Below, in pieces: positions 7,639-13,297 of a stretch of DNA of 64,000 bases. Position 1 is the stretch's first letter. Each line of letters begins with the position of its first letter. The position numbers and the translations under genes are program-made. The notes below the pieces were generated by a model that was given only the letters and a program-made list of their open reading frames with translations, searched no databases and was not told where the DNA came from. Source of the stretch: Leptolyngbya sp. FACHB-261. GTDB taxonomy: Bacteria; Cyanobacteriota; Cyanobacteriia; FACHB-261. Where the stretch lies: NCBI RefSeq assembly GCF_014696065.1, contig NZ_JACJPL010000031.1, positions 682,001 through 746,000 on the forward strand, in the 5' to 3' direction.

Positions 7639-9198
7639 TTGGCAACTGGGGAACGGGCGCAGATCTTTATTAGTTATCGACGCTCTGAGCCGGATCAGTC
7701 GGTGGCGTTGGCGGTTTATCAGGCGCTGGGTCAGGACCATGAGGTCTTTATTGACCAGACGATGACTGTGGGCACACGCTGGGCAGAACGCATTGAAGCG
7801 GAGATCCAACGCTCGGATTATCTAATTACGTTCATCTCGGCGCAGTCAGTGACTAGTGAGATGGTGGTGGCGGAGATTGAGAAAGCCCATCATCTCAGCA
7901 AGCAAACGGGCAAGCCGGGAATTTTGCCGGTGCGCTTGGCCTATACGGAGCCGTTGGTTTATCCGCTGAGCGCTTATTTGAACAGCATCAACTGGGCTTT
8001 CTGGAAGGATGAGCAGGATACACCACGACTGATTGCAGAATTGCAGCGGGCGATTGCTGGGGCAGGCTTGGCAGTTGGGGAACTGAACAGCCGCGCCGCT
8101 CAGCTTCCAGAAGGCGAGCCCCCAGAAGGCCAGCCCCCAGAAGGCCAACCAGACCTGGCGCGTCCCTTGCCCTCAGCTCAGCCGGTGTCGCTGGAGCTGC
8201 CGGAGGGGACGATGGATCCTGAATCGGCTTTCTATGTGGCGCGTCCGTCTGCGGATCCGTTGGCGCTGGAGACGATTGCGCAGCAGGGCGTGACGATCAC
8301 GATCAAAGGCCCTCGGCAGATGGGCAAGAGTTCGCTGCTGATTCGCACGATTGGGGCGGCGGTTGAGGCGGGTAAGCGCGTGGCTTTCCTGGATTTTCAA
8401 CTGTTTGACCAGGCGGCACTGGCAGATGCGGGCCTATTTTTTCGCCGCTTCTCCACTTGGCTAACTAGGAAGCTGAGACTTACCAACCGGATAGAGGAGT
8501 ATTGGGCTTCGGGGTTGGGCCATAGTCAGTGCTGCACCGACTATCTGGAGTGTTACTTGCTGGAGGAGCTGGCTAGCCCATTGGTGCTGGCGATGGATGA
8601 GGTGGAGTCTGTACTTGATACAGACTTCCACACCGACTTTTTTGGCATGTTGCGGAGCTGGCACAACAACCGCGCCATTACTCCGATTTGGAAGCGATTG
8701 GATCTGGTGCTGGTGACTTCGACTGAGCCTTATCAGTTGATCGAGAACTTGAATCAGTCGCCCTTCAATGTAGGTCAGGTGATTGAACTGGAGGATTTCA
8801 CGTTGGCGCAGGTGGCTGACCTTAATCTGCGGCATGGACAACCTCTGAACCTGGAACAGGAGCGGCAATTGATGACGCTGTTGGGCGGGCATCCCTATCT
8901 AGTGCGGCGGGCTCTGTACTTGGTAGCTAGTCAACAAATAACGGTGGCAGATCTGTTCACCAATGCCACAGCCGACCGGGGACCACTTGGCGATCACCTG
9001 AGCTATCACCTGTTCCGTCTGCACGAAAGAAGGGAGCTAGTACAGGGCTTGCTTCAGGTGATCCGTAACCAGACCTGCCCTGATGAGCGCGTGTTCTTCC
9101 GGCTGCGCGGGGCTGGCTTAGTACGTCGCCAGAACCAGCGAACCGTGCCGCGCTGTCAGTTGTACGCAGAGTATTTCCGGGAGCATCTGCGTGGGTAG
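7639..9198 (+). CDS. TIR domain-AAA (AAA_35-like) ATPase protein
   Basis: The protein has 519 aa. Residues 6-140 form a TIR domain: AQIFISYRRS at the start, then SDYLITFISAQSVTSEMVVAEIEKA, where Glu79 or Glu81 sits at the position of the catalytic Glu of TIR NADases. A Pro/Glu/Gly linker with PEGQP repeats (about 153-166) leads to an AAA-like NTPase domain with P-loop KGPRQMGKSSLL (around 222-233) and Walker B LVLAMDEVESVLD (around 315). The C-terminal part looks like a winged-helix lid. TIR domains act as adaptors or NAD-cleaving effectors, and the AAA part is STAND-like. No ATG exists near the start; TTG at 7639 best fits the domain. The next gene carries a related AAA domain. Confidence 0.85.
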   Translation: MATGERAQIFISYRRSEPDQSVALAVYQALGQDHEVFIDQTMTVGTRWAERIEAEIQRSDYLITFISAQSVTSEMVVAEIEKAHHLSKQTGKPGILPVRLAYTEPLVYPLSAYLNSINWAFWKDEQDTPRLIAELQRAIAGAGLAVGELNSRAAQLPEGEPPEGQPPEGQPDLARPLPSAQPVSLELPEGTMDPESAFYVARPSADPLALETIAQQGVTITIKGPRQMGKSSLLIRTIGAAVEAGKRVAFLDFQLFDQAALADAGLFFRRFSTWLTRKLRLTNRIEEYWASGLGHSQCCTDYLECYLLEELASPLVLAMDEVESVLDTDFHTDFFGMLRSWHNNRAITPIWKRLDLVLVTSTEPYQLIENLNQSPFNVGQVIELEDFTLAQVADLNLRHGQPLNLEQERQLMTLLGGHPYLVRRALYLVASQQITVADLFTNATADRGPLGDHLSYHLFRLHERRELVQGLLQVIRNQTCPDERVFFRLRGAGLVRRQNQRTVPRCQLYAEYFREHLRG

Positions 9199-9380: not shown

Positions 9381-9384
9381 ACCT

Positions 9385-9658
9385 CATTAATGAGCCTCTG
9401 AGCTGCATTAATGAGGTTCTGAGCTTCATTCACGAGGCTTGGAGTTGCATTAATGGGGTTCCGAGGCTCATTCACGAGGTTCTGAGGCTCTCTAGAGAGG
9501 ATCAAAGCCTCATTAATGAGGTTCTGAGGTTCATTAATGAGGTTCTGAGGTTCATTAATGAGGCTTGGAGCTTCATTCACGAGGCTCTGAGCTTCATGCG
9601 CGAGGTTTGGAGGCTCTTTAAAGAGGATCAGGAGCTTCATTCGTGAGGCTCGGAGCTG
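9385..9658 (+). repeat. tandem array of about 13 units, 21-bp period
   Basis: The units follow the pattern CATTAATGAGGTTCTGAGGTT with variation. Twelve are 21 bases and one (CTTTAAAGAGGATCAGGAGCTT) has 22. In most units the CTC/NAATG/GAG core makes a dyad-symmetric block such as CTCATTAATGAG; two diverged units keep perfect symmetry with other bases (CTCTCTAGAGAG, CTCTTTAAAGAG). A 21-base period equals seven codons, so one plus-strand frame gives heptads such as LINEVLR and FINEAWS. The last units break that frame, there is no convincing start, and the minus strand is open too. I regard coding as unproven. Confidence 0.8.
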
Positions 9659-9719: not shown

Positions 9720-10595
9720 ATGACCCGAGCGAGTATCTACACAGTTGGCGGTACGGTGCAGGCGGGCAGTGGCATTTATATTCCGCGTCAGGCGGATGAG
9801 GAGCTGCTGAAGCTGTGCCGGGAAGGGGCGTTTGCCTATATCCTCACGGCTCGTCAGATGGGGAAGTCGAGCTTGATGGTGCGCACTGCGGAGCAGTTGG
9901 CCAAGGAGGGCATTCGCTCGGTGATTGTGGACCTTCAGAATTCGGGAGGGCAGATTACACCGGAACAGTGGTACCTCAATTTCGCGATGCGGCTGAAACG
10001 ACAGCTCCGTTTCAAGGCTGATGTGTTGGCTTGGTGGCGGGAGCGAAGACATCTGAGTGTTTCCCAACGCTTAACACTATTTTTTGAGGAGGTGTTGCTG
10101 GCTGAGGTTGAGGAGCGGGTAGTAGTCTTTGTTGATGAGATTGACAGCACCCTCAGTCTTGACTTCACGGACGATTTTTTCACCGCTATTCGCTATCTCT
10201 ACGTGGCACGAGCGCAGAATCTAGTCCTTAAGCGGCTCTCGTTTGTGCTGATTGGCGTAGCAACCCCCAGCGACTTAATACGCGACCCTTGGCGCACGCC
10301 CTTCAACGTTGGGCAACGGGTGGATCTAACCGATTTTAGCTTTGAGGAGGCGCTGCCTCTAGCGGCGGGGTTGGGGCTGGCGGAGACGGAGGCCAAGCGG
10401 GTGCTGGATTGGGTGCTGAAGTGGACGAATGGCCACCCCTATCTCACGCAACGGCTGTGTCGAGTGGTGGCAGAGGCAGGCCCCCCCGGCCCCCAATGCT
10501 GGGGGGAGAACGGAGGGAGGGTGTGGCTAATCGCCCAGTTTCAGGTGGAGCGAGAGGCTTGGTATCCATTGGCCGCTCGGTCTGGGGGAAGGTAA
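9720..10595 (+). CDS. AAA-like ATPase, N-terminal part of a split AAA-WD40 gene
   Basis: The start at 9720 has a good ribosome-binding site (GAGGAG). Residues 1-255 form an AAA_35-like NTPase: P-loop ARQMGKSSLM at 44-53, Walker B VVVFVDEID at 134-142, and later WRTPFNVGQRVDLTDFS and GHPYLTQRLCRVVAEAG, which are standard for this family. The last 36 residues (GPPGPQCWGENGG onward) do not belong: they are read from an inserted palindromic element that shifts the frame and leads to a TAA at 10593. In intact relatives this domain continues into a TM segment, coiled coil and WD40 repeats, as found in the next frame. The NTPase part related to that of the TIR protein suggests a common regulatory principle. 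Confidence 0.8.
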   Translation: MTRASIYTVGGTVQAGSGIYIPRQADEELLKLCREGAFAYILTARQMGKSSLMVRTAEQLAKEGIRSVIVDLQNSGGQITPEQWYLNFAMRLKRQLRFKADVLAWWRERRHLSVSQRLTLFFEEVLLAEVEERVVVFVDEIDSTLSLDFTDDFFTAIRYLYVARAQNLVLKRLSFVLIGVATPSDLIRDPWRTPFNVGQRVDLTDFSFEEALPLAAGLGLAETEAKRVLDWVLKWTNGHPYLTQRLCRVVAEAGPPGPQCWGENGGRVWLIAQFQVEREAWYPLAARSGGR

Positions 10596-13297
10596 AAAAC
10601 TCCGGTTCCCCCCAGCATTGGGGGGCCGGGGGGACCTGGACTGAGGCGGCGGTTGACGGTTTGGTGAGCCGCACTTTTTTTGGAGCGCAGAGCGAGCAAG
10701 ACAATAACTTGCAGTTTGTGCGGGACATGCTGACCAAGCGAGCGCGGGATCCGGTTGGTGTGTTGACGACTTATGGCGAGATTCGCCGGGGTAAGCGCCC
10801 GGTGTTGGATGAGGAGCAATCGCTGGTTAAGTCGCACCTCAAGCTGTCGGGGGTGGTTTGTCGGGCCGATAATGCAGTGCTGCATGTGCGCAATCGCATT
10901 TATCGCACGGCGTTTGATGGCCAGTGGGTTCGGGAGAATTTGCCGGGGACTTGGTGGGACCGGATTAAGCCTGCGCTGCCGGTGATTGTGGGTTTGTTGT
11001 TGCTGTCGTTGGTGATGGCGGGGTTGGCGGGGTATGCGCTTCAGCAGCGTCAGATGGCTCAAACGCAAGCTGTGATTGCGCAACAGCAGACCCAGATTGC
11101 TAATAGGCGGTTAGAGGAAGTCAACCGTCAACGTCAGGAAGCCCAGAAGCAAGCTCGGATTGCACAACAGCAAACCAAGAAAGCCCTGGACTTGCAACTG
11201 GCAGCGGATCAACAGCGCCAGGAAGCCCAAAAGCAGACCGGGATTGCGCAACAGAATGCGCGAGAAGCCAACCAGCAACGGCAAGCGGCACAGAAGCAGG
11301 CTGGAATTGCTCAGCGCAATGAGCAAGCAGCCAACCGAGAGCGCCAACGAGCCGAGGAGCAACGCCTGGAAGCCCAGTTGCAGGAGCAAGGAACCTTGGC
11401 CAGCATCCTGCTCAATACCCAGCCCGTGAATGGTACCCTGCTGGCAATTCAAGCCGCAGGGCGAAGTTTAGCGGAATTTCAGAAGGTTCTCCCCCCGATC
11501 CAATCCAGCCTGCTTAATGCCGTCGAAGCATCCAGGGAAAAAAATCTCTTTCGAGGTCATCAGGATCCTTTAGTCATGTCAGTCGCCTTCGGTCCCGACG
11601 GGCAGACCATTGTTAGCGGCGGTGGAGACAAGACTATCCGACTGTGGGACCGGCAGGGTAAACCCCTAGGCCAGCCCTTCCAGGGGCATGGGGATGATAT
11701 CAATTCTGTGGCCTTTAGTCCCGATGGACAGACCATCGTTAGTGGCAGCAGTGACAAGACCATCCGACTGTGGGACCGACAGGGCAACCAACTAGGGCAG
11801 CCCTTCCGGGGGCATCAGGAGGCTGTCTGGTCTGTGGCCTTTAGTCCCGATGGACAGACCATCGTTAGTGGCAGCAGTGACAAGACCATCCGACTGTGGG
11901 ACCGACAGGGCAACCAACTAGGGCAGCCCTTCCAAGGGCATCAGGGTTGGGTCAGGTCTGTGGCCTTTAGTCCCGATGGACAGACCATCGTTAGTGGCAG
12001 CAGTGACAAGACCATCCGACTGTGGGACCGACAGGGCAACCAACTAGGGCAGCCCTTCCGGGGGCACCAGAAGGCTGTCAGGTCTGTGGCCTTTAGTCCC
12101 GATGGGCAGTCCATTGTTAGTGGCAGTGTTGACAAGACCATCCGACTGTGGGACCAGCAGGGCAAGCCGTTGGGTCACCCATTCCAAGGGCATTGGAGCT
12201 GGGTTTTTTCTGTAACCTTTAGTCCTGATGGACAGACTATTGTTAGTAGTGGTAACGACAGCACCATCCGACTGTGGGACCGACAGGGTAACCAACTAGG
12301 GCAGCCCTTTCAAGGGCATCAGGGTTCTGTCTGGTCTGTGGCCTTTAATCCTGATGGACAGTCCATTGTTAGTGGTGGTTGGGATAGCACCCTGCGACTG
12401 TGGGACCGACAGGGCAAGCAGATAGGGCAGCCCTTCCAAGGGCATCAGGAGGCTGTCTCGTCTGTGGCCTTTAGCCCCGATGGGCAGACCATTGTTAGTG
12501 GCAGTTTTGACAACACCTTCCGCCTCTGGGACCGACAGGGCAAGCCACTAGGCCAGCCCTTCCAGGGGCATGGGGATGATGTCAATTCTGTGGCCTTTAG
12601 TCCCGATGGACAGACCATTGTTATTGGCAGTGATGACAACACCCTCCGCCTCTGGAACCGACAGGGTAAGCAGATAGGGCAGCCCTTCCAAGGGCATCAG
12701 GGTTGGGTCAGGTCTGTGGCCTTTAGTCCCGATGGACGGACCATTGTTAGTGGCAGTGATGACAACACCCTCCGCCTCTGGAACCGACAGGGTAAGCAGA
12801 TAGGGCAGCCCTTCCAAGGGCATCAGGGTTCTGTCTTGTCTGTGGCCTTTAGTCCCGATGGGCAGACCATTGTTAGTGGCAGTTCCAACAGGACCATTCG
12901 CCTCTGGGACCGACAGGGCAAGCAGATAGGGCAGCCCTTCCAAGGGCATCAGGATTGGGTTAGGTCTGTGGCCTTTAGTCCCGATGGACAGTCCATCCTT
13001 AGTGGCAGTGATGACAACACCCTCCGACTGTGGGACCGACAGGGCAAGCAGATAGGCCAGCCCTTCCAGGGGCATCAGGAGGCTGTCAGGTCTGTGGCCT
13101 TTAGTCCTGATGGACAGTCTATTGTTAGTGGCAGCAATGACAAGACCCTCCGCCTGTGGCAGGGCGGCACTTGGCAAGCTGGGCTGCGAATTGATTGCAA
13201 TCGCCTGCGCAACCACCCGGTTATGCGCGAACCCAAGGATGAAGTTGCGCGAGGAGCCAAAGAGACCTGCCAGCGATATGTGTGGAGCAAGCGTTGA
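10409..13297 (+). CDS. transmembrane, coiled-coil and WD40 part of the split AAA-WD40 gene
   Basis: From about 10634 this frame continues the ATPase gene: WTEAAVD, then LVSRTFFGAQSEQDNNLQFVRDML, a transmembrane helix (LPVIVGLLLLSLVMAGLAGYAL, coded near 10975-11040), and a long Gln/Ala/Arg coiled coil of repeated QRQEAQKQ.GIAQQ units (about 11040-11400). A helical linker follows, then 13 WD40 units of 42 residues (about 11570-13200), each with SVAFSPDGQTIVSG and RLWD. The C-terminal tail (CNRLRNHP) is typical. The 5' end before 10634 is out-of-frame shadow or insertion; without frameshifting, translation would need an internal start such as GTG 10664. WD40 propellers bind proteins, probably as the sensing part. 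Confidence 0.8.
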   Translation: MGAEVDEWPPLSHATAVSSGGRGRPPRPPMLGGERREGVANRPVSGGARGLVSIGRSVWGKVKNSGSPQHWGAGGTWTEAAVDGLVSRTFFGAQSEQDNNLQFVRDMLTKRARDPVGVLTTYGEIRRGKRPVLDEEQSLVKSHLKLSGVVCRADNAVLHVRNRIYRTAFDGQWVRENLPGTWWDRIKPALPVIVGLLLLSLVMAGLAGYALQQRQMAQTQAVIAQQQTQIANRRLEEVNRQRQEAQKQARIAQQQTKKALDLQLAADQQRQEAQKQTGIAQQNAREANQQRQAAQKQAGIAQRNEQAANRERQRAEEQRLEAQLQEQGTLASILLNTQPVNGTLLAIQAAGRSLAEFQKVLPPIQSSLLNAVEASREKNLFRGHQDPLVMSVAFGPDGQTIVSGGGDKTIRLWDRQGKPLGQPFQGHGDDINSVAFSPDGQTIVSGSSDKTIRLWDRQGNQLGQPFRGHQEAVWSVAFSPDGQTIVSGSSDKTIRLWDRQGNQLGQPFQGHQGWVRSVAFSPDGQTIVSGSSDKTIRLWDRQGNQLGQPFRGHQKAVRSVAFSPDGQSIVSGSVDKTIRLWDQQGKPLGHPFQGHWSWVFSVTFSPDGQTIVSSGNDSTIRLWDRQGNQLGQPFQGHQGSVWSVAFNPDGQSIVSGGWDSTLRLWDRQGKQIGQPFQGHQEAVSSVAFSPDGQTIVSGSFDNTFRLWDRQGKPLGQPFQGHGDDVNSVAFSPDGQTIVIGSDDNTLRLWNRQGKQIGQPFQGHQGWVRSVAFSPDGRTIVSGSDDNTLRLWNRQGKQIGQPFQGHQGSVLSVAFSPDGQTIVSGSSNRTIRLWDRQGKQIGQPFQGHQDWVRSVAFSPDGQSILSGSDDNTLRLWDRQGKQIGQPFQGHQEAVRSVAFSPDGQSIVSGSNDKTLRLWQGGTWQAGLRIDCNRLRNHPVMREPKDEVARGAKETCQRYVWSKR
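10481..10633. mobile_element. palindromic element inserted in the AAA-WD40 gene
   Basis: The left arm (10481-10511: C7, GG, C5, AATGCT, G6, AGAAC) is the reverse complement of the right arm (10605-10633: GTT, C6, AGCATT, G6, CC, G6) with only small length differences in the homopolymers. The centre (about 93 bases) has no gene. Removing about 152 bases (10481-10632) joins the reading frames exactly, giving AEAG followed by TWTEAAVD, as expected for the family. So the element was probably added to an intact gene. The CCCAGCATTGGGG core resembles dispersed intergenic palindromes common in cyanobacteria. No transposase is encoded; the mobility is inferred. Confidence 0.7.
11575..13185 (+). repeat. 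thirteen 126-bp WD40-coding tandem repeats
   Basis: The repeats are nearly identical at DNA level. Three consecutive units beginning near 11707, 11833 and 11959 are identical over about 100 bases (from TCTGTGGCCTTTAGTCCCG to the CAGCCCTTCC segment). They differ almost only in the last 20 or so bases, which encode the loop after GH (QEAVW, QGWVR, QKAVR, WSWVF, QGSVW, QDWVR and others). Silent sites are also conserved, so the array is recent or kept uniform by recombination. Confidence 0.9.

Follow-up and report, generated by a model that had tools for sequence, protein, structure and literature searches.

In this study, we sought to determine what kind of gene carries the long series of similar WD40 repeats found in a window of 64,000 nucleotides from the cyanobacterium Leptolyngbya sp. 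FACHB-261 (contig NZ_JACJPL010000031.1, positions 682,001 to 746,000), and where in the repeat unit the differences between these repeats fall. The locus is of a known kind, a cyanobacterial WRAP (WD40-family Recently Amplified Propeller) operon, in which a TIR-STAND gene is followed by a gene encoding STAND, membrane, coiled-coil and WD40 regions. The core idea has been published already; what we add is a comparative quantification of the array and an insertion hotspot in the linker. Our main reading, to which we assign a probability of about 0.82, is that this WRAP-type operon would pair a TIR-STAND effector with a membrane-anchored STAND-WD40 sensor bearing diversified blades, and that the copy present here has most likely been inactivated recently or is made as two proteins.

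The surrounding genome (6.9 Mb in 36 contigs) is rich in WD40 genes, with 150 scored WD40 matches across the assembly contigs. On the forward strand, the gene at 7639-9198 (519 aa) encodes a TIR domain (Pfam TIR_2, E 1e-19), with no N-terminal extension ahead of it, and a STAND-like AAA_35 domain (E 9.5e-114), making it the putative effector partner. Between this gene and the sensor gene lies a 21-bp tandem repeat array detected by TRF (9384-9657; ten copies of TCATTAATGAGGTTCTGAGCT), in which frames are open on both strands and to which arrays at three other sites in the genome are related. The sensor gene begins, again on the forward strand, with an ORF at 9720-10595 (291 aa) that matches AAA_35 (E 2e-35, profile positions 4-238 of 331) in a frame that, in this assembly, differs from that of the WD40 ORF. 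The second ORF of the sensor gene (10409-13297, forward strand) holds the rest of the STAND region, a putative membrane helix, a coiled coil, the WD40 array (Pfam WD40, 13 stretches, E 1.5e-175) and a C-terminal tail. Comparison with 48 homologous cyanobacterial loci places the linker at 10637-11539, and it comprises the STAND tail and, by inspection, a hydrophobic stretch (approximately 10970-11040) and a glutamine-rich coiled coil. A TIR-STAND gene immediately precedes the sensor gene, in the same orientation, at 40 of the 48 homologous loci; at two loci (L071 and L075) it lies on the strand opposite to the sensor gene. The best PDB match of the array, by sequence and by fold, is the WRAP protein of Nostoc punctiforme (2YMU; E 2.6e-235), and a designed seven-bladed relative, 7BIG, matches with a target TM of 0.97. 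According to published descriptions, WRAP makes up the C-terminal end of a STAND protein, the gene for which is coupled to one encoding a TIR-STAND protein, and WRAP propellers are independently amplified, sometimes disrupted and of proposed function in innate immunity (PMC6805158, PMC9218822).

The array occupies 11555-13192 on the forward strand and consists of 13 head-to-tail units of 42 residues (126 bp) with a start-to-start spacing of exactly 126; it contains no stop codon, and its last unit loses the repeat pattern past its W. An earlier note on this DNA had likewise counted thirteen 42-residue units, placing the first at 11575 rather than 11555. It had also described the units as near-identical in DNA, silent sites included, which is correct for units 2, 3 and 4 (92-94% identical and sharing unbroken matches of 105 and 110 bases, in keeping with the match of approximately 100 bases reported for three neighbouring units) and for a few other stretches, but not for the array as a whole. 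Over all unit pairs, DNA identity averages approximately 80%, with a mean dN of 0.17 and a mean dS of 0.48; with a dS this high, near-identity at silent sites is limited to part of the array. In all cases (13 of 13), a unit has its nearest relative within its own gene, whether the remainder of the genome or the homologs are taken for comparison, the mean identity among the 13 units being approximately 0.82 compared with 0.71 for the best foreign unit among homologs. Exchange of units with the other WD40 genes of the genome was not seen, since no foreign unit is nearer than a unit of the gene itself (best 0.74). The array was amplified inside the gene and not inherited blade by blade. Compatibility between sites within the array showed no significant relation to distance (21 sites, P 0.63), a test for recombination that has little power with 12 units; recombination may nevertheless be what makes new specificities, as had been proposed.

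Differences between the units are not spread evenly along the blade. Six of the 41 unit codons (4, 5, 6, 8, 24 and 26), a set picked post hoc, take 25 of the 46 amino-acid changes, 46 being the minimum number (binomial P 4e-10), and only 2 of the 37 silent changes, so that nonsynonymous to silent changes stand at 25:2 in these codons versus 21:35 in the others (Fisher P 1e-6). Four positions fixed beforehand from the fungal genes het-d and het-e (unit codons 6, 8, 24 and 26) hold 19 of the 46 changes (P 2e-8), a test of concentration and not of selection itself. This bears out the suggestion that a bacterial STAND protein, here with its AAA_35 match in a frame apart from that of the WD40 array, carries a propeller varying at HET-E-type surface positions. 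Codons 4, 5, 6 and 8 follow GH, in the single loop on which variation had been thought to focus; codons 24 and 26, in the S-x-D-x-T motif (SGSxDxT), are equally variable and add a second loop. In an AlphaFold model, the variable codons fall in the loop ahead of strand a (d-a) and in the one connecting strands b and c (b-c). They map to the codons under selection in het-d and het-e (7, 9, 25 and 27 in their numbering), and work on these fungal genes assigns both loops to the top face of the propeller (PMC1805685, PMC2873952). From the model and by analogy with these receptors, the two variable loops of the array are predicted to lie on one propeller face. The model is good inside blades and poor in overall arrangement (pTM 0.52), and a dip in its confidence near blades 6-7 suggests that the 13 blades may be arranged as 6+7.

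One alternative to diversifying selection is that the array is merely young, that is, recently amplified from one blade and diverging neutrally, with no selection for diversity. Amplification from a single blade has been published for WRAP (PMC9218822), the units group by gene, and purifying selection at the other codons accounts for part of the contrast with the six. The ratio of 25:2 exceeds the neutral expectation only modestly (P 0.03). However, silent changes avoid the six codons and amino-acid changes crowd them, unlike a neutral spread, and the same positions vary in unrelated arrays. We regard mere youth of the array as unlikely, though it deserves to be kept in mind.

The positional pattern extends well beyond this gene. 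The per-codon profile of variability correlates at r 0.79 with the profiles of 24 homologous arrays and at r 0.87 with those of five other highly repetitive arrays from the same genome. When 16 repetitive arrays are pooled, leaving out that of the window, amino-acid to silent changes number 262:37 at the six codons versus 204:222 elsewhere (Fisher P 3e-30). Variability at the same codons is a property of the family, and 17 cyanobacterial arrays thus vary, codon by codon, at the surface positions of fungal allorecognition receptors. The five further highly repetitive arrays of this genome (L094, L095, L100, L102 and L105) include three in nSTAND1 proteins, of which one has a TIR-like and one a caspase-like N-terminus, both by inspection, and one adjoins a TIR gene. 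The L105 array has an overall pN/pS of 1.8. Units of L098, at the start of contig 27, and of L102, at the end of contig 32, are up to 97% identical, and the two are probably a single array split by the assembly.

Homologs with 91-95% identical cores (from the STAND end to the linker) share no arrays: they have unrelated loop orders and unlike blade numbers (11, 14 or more), for instance 14 versus 11, or 11 versus 11 without shared order. L046 compared with L049 and L042 is a case in point. Blade counts in draft contigs are partly truncated or maybe collapsed, whereas the examples quoted here are complete ORFs. That near-identical cores carry unrelated arrays indicates that the arrays turn over fast, and such homologs lend themselves to testing whether NLR-like sensors in bacteria diversify in the manner of fungal ones. 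Homologs commonly have 14 blades, and 10, 11 and 15-16 also occur; blade number therefore varies within the WRAP family. Homogenisation is not universal, since in the old WRAP-homolog arrays of L043, L060 and L076 blades match across genes and are not homogenised, making these three a natural contrast group to the homogenised arrays. Among 59 relatives, there was no genome of the same family for strain comparison.

It is in the linker that the present copy departs from its homologs. The segment between the conserved motifs GHPYLTQ and EQDNNL measures 281 nt in the window (remainder 2), compared with a fixed 45 residues in insert-free homologs. The extra DNA is a frame-shifting foldback of approximately 160 bp (10476-10636) with 27-nt arms (10481-10507 and 10607-10633, 93% complementary), a fold z of -6.2 and -5.3 in two computations, and arms that recur elsewhere in the genome; the final 40 or so codons of the ORF at 9720-10595 are read within it. 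The AAA part of homologs is 55-75% identical to this ORF and runs on in frame into the linker. AAA and linker share one ORF in 51 of 52 homologs, and the remaining one has no AAA match. Of 31 homologs readable at the linker, 18 carry inserts of 1-68 codons, and the 13 that lack one have a mean fold z of +0.7; the insert group, with the window included, has a mean fold z of -2.8 (Mann-Whitney P 5e-5 against the insert-free group). The inserts are in frame in all 18 homologs, but only homologs with a single frame open over the whole site entered this set, so that 51/52 is the unbiased count. They are of several unrelated types (ETRFIASL, PPTPLxKGG...PPFLRGVRGD, GNGEGG...FPFTLLPFTLSP and THPPAPSRKGE), strong folding is seen in many of the longer inserts, and their bearers include L042, L044, L045, L048, L049, L054, L059, L073 and L075, among others. 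The linker therefore tolerates repeat insertion, and the copy in the window is a frame-breaking exception. In the related literature consulted for comparison, we found no mention of a repeat-insertion hotspot in the WRAP linker, which could reflect a hinge that tolerates insertion or a route to switching these genes off. Since the foldback puts the STAND and WD40 halves in different frames, the copy has most likely been inactivated recently, or is made as two proteins. Judged from its reading frames, it is probably a recently broken receptor without a full-length sensor, unless a C7 tract at 10481-10487 on the forward strand (C-CCC-CCC in the AAA frame) restores the frame.

Two other accounts of the frame break must be weighed. 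The break could be a base-calling or assembly error in the C-rich foldback, in which case this would be a WRAP gene of the usual in-frame kind, with an insert of 54 residues in its linker. A single base in the C7 tract, within a strong hairpin, would suffice, and the inserts of homologs are in frame; but the two arms are equal in total length (C7GGC5 versus C6GGC6), which gives no sign that a base is missing, and we consider such an error improbable, on a par with mere youth of the array. Alternatively, the gene could be intact in life, a slip of one base at the C7 tract (by a -1 shift of the ribosome, by slippage of the polymerase or because cells differ between C7 and C8) joining the AAA_35 and WD40 frames into a switchable full-length receptor. 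Read in the zero frame, 10482-10487 is CCC CCC after a C, which is how a slippery heptamer for -1 shifts is built; the new frame meets no stop in the insert or beyond it until that of the WD40 ORF at 13297; the tract is followed by a very stable hairpin; and both the uninterrupted array and the in-frame inserts of 18/18 homologs agree with the idea. Conversely, C-CCC-CCC is not well established as a slippery site, the tract itself lies in the hairpin stem, an open frame across approximately 53 GC-rich codons is not rare, and no homolog has the same arrangement. We judge such a slip still less probable than an assembly error. A bolder combination, that the WRAP linker repeatedly receives unrelated hairpin-forming repeats, which are kept in frame, and that C7 slippage here switches a full-length receptor, as a phase-variable bacterial NLR-like gene, is a speculation for which we would claim slightly less again. 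Finally, although diversity-generating retroelements diversify putative sensors in multicellular bacteria, according to the published passages on them (PMC10907252), we reject them as the source of loop variation, since a search of the genome (97.7% complete) gave no RVT_1 reverse transcriptase match where control genomes were positive, and the variable codons have no shared template.

Returning to the WRAP operon with a recently inactivated or divided sensor, we propose the following working. The downstream gene would encode a STAND sensor anchored in the membrane, with two propellers built from its C-terminal WD40 blades. The blades were amplified and kept alike within the gene, and six codons per blade, located in loops D-A and B-C of the putative ligand face, would have diversified under relaxed or positive selection. 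Binding of a ligand to the variable face of the propellers may lead to oligomerisation of the STAND protein and activation of the TIR partner, as in the fungal NWD/HNWD receptors and APAF-1, and action of the TIR partner could in turn end in cell suicide or arrest. The operon may serve immunity or the recognition of non-self.

How, then, does the locus compare with known systems? None of the described anti-phage defence families in PADLOC fits; the TIR hits are weak (best E 1.5e-6), and the HEAT-ARM_XIII model matches the WD40 array. The highly-repetitive (HR) WD40 proteins of prokaryotes (PMC5587647) share high internal identity, diversity at interaction hotspot sites and enrichment in Cyanobacteria; they are a general class, described without an operon or disruption. 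The fungal NWD/HNWD receptors het-d, het-e and het-r (PMC1805685, PMC2873952) likewise combine a STAND domain with near-identical WD40 repeats, the AAA_35 match and the repeats being in different frames in the present assembly. The selected codons 7, 9, 25 and 27 of het-d and het-e correspond to unit codons 6, 8, 24 and 26 of this array, on either side of an invariant V and an invariant D that both have. In HNWD proteins, however, NACHT and HET domains lie in one chain where AAA_35 and TIR are found here, and HNWD receptors are marked by repeat numbers that are polymorphic within a species and by exchange of units between family members, whereas here all units group by gene. With AAA_35 and TIR in place of NACHT and HET, the system would work like the HNWD receptors but is not a member of them.

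The closest known system is Npun_R6612 of Nostoc punctiforme (2YMU; PMC6805158, PMC9218822). As far as its published description extends, it shares C-terminal WD40 blades, a TIR-STAND gene directly upstream, a cyanobacterial host and gene-specific amplification; its STAND ATPase has as counterpart here an AAA_35 match in a different frame from the WD40 ORF, and disrupted members are known in the WRAP family. It differs in having 14 blades, in two seven-bladed propellers, compared with 13 here, a number that is not strictly defining; in showing, in the same passages, no synonymous differences between blades, compared with a mean dS of 0.48; and in its operon, in that here a foldback insert parts STAND from WD40 and the partner has no N-terminal extension before its TIR domain. 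The locus therefore adds a diverged and diversified WRAP array to a family known for near-identical and disrupted ones.
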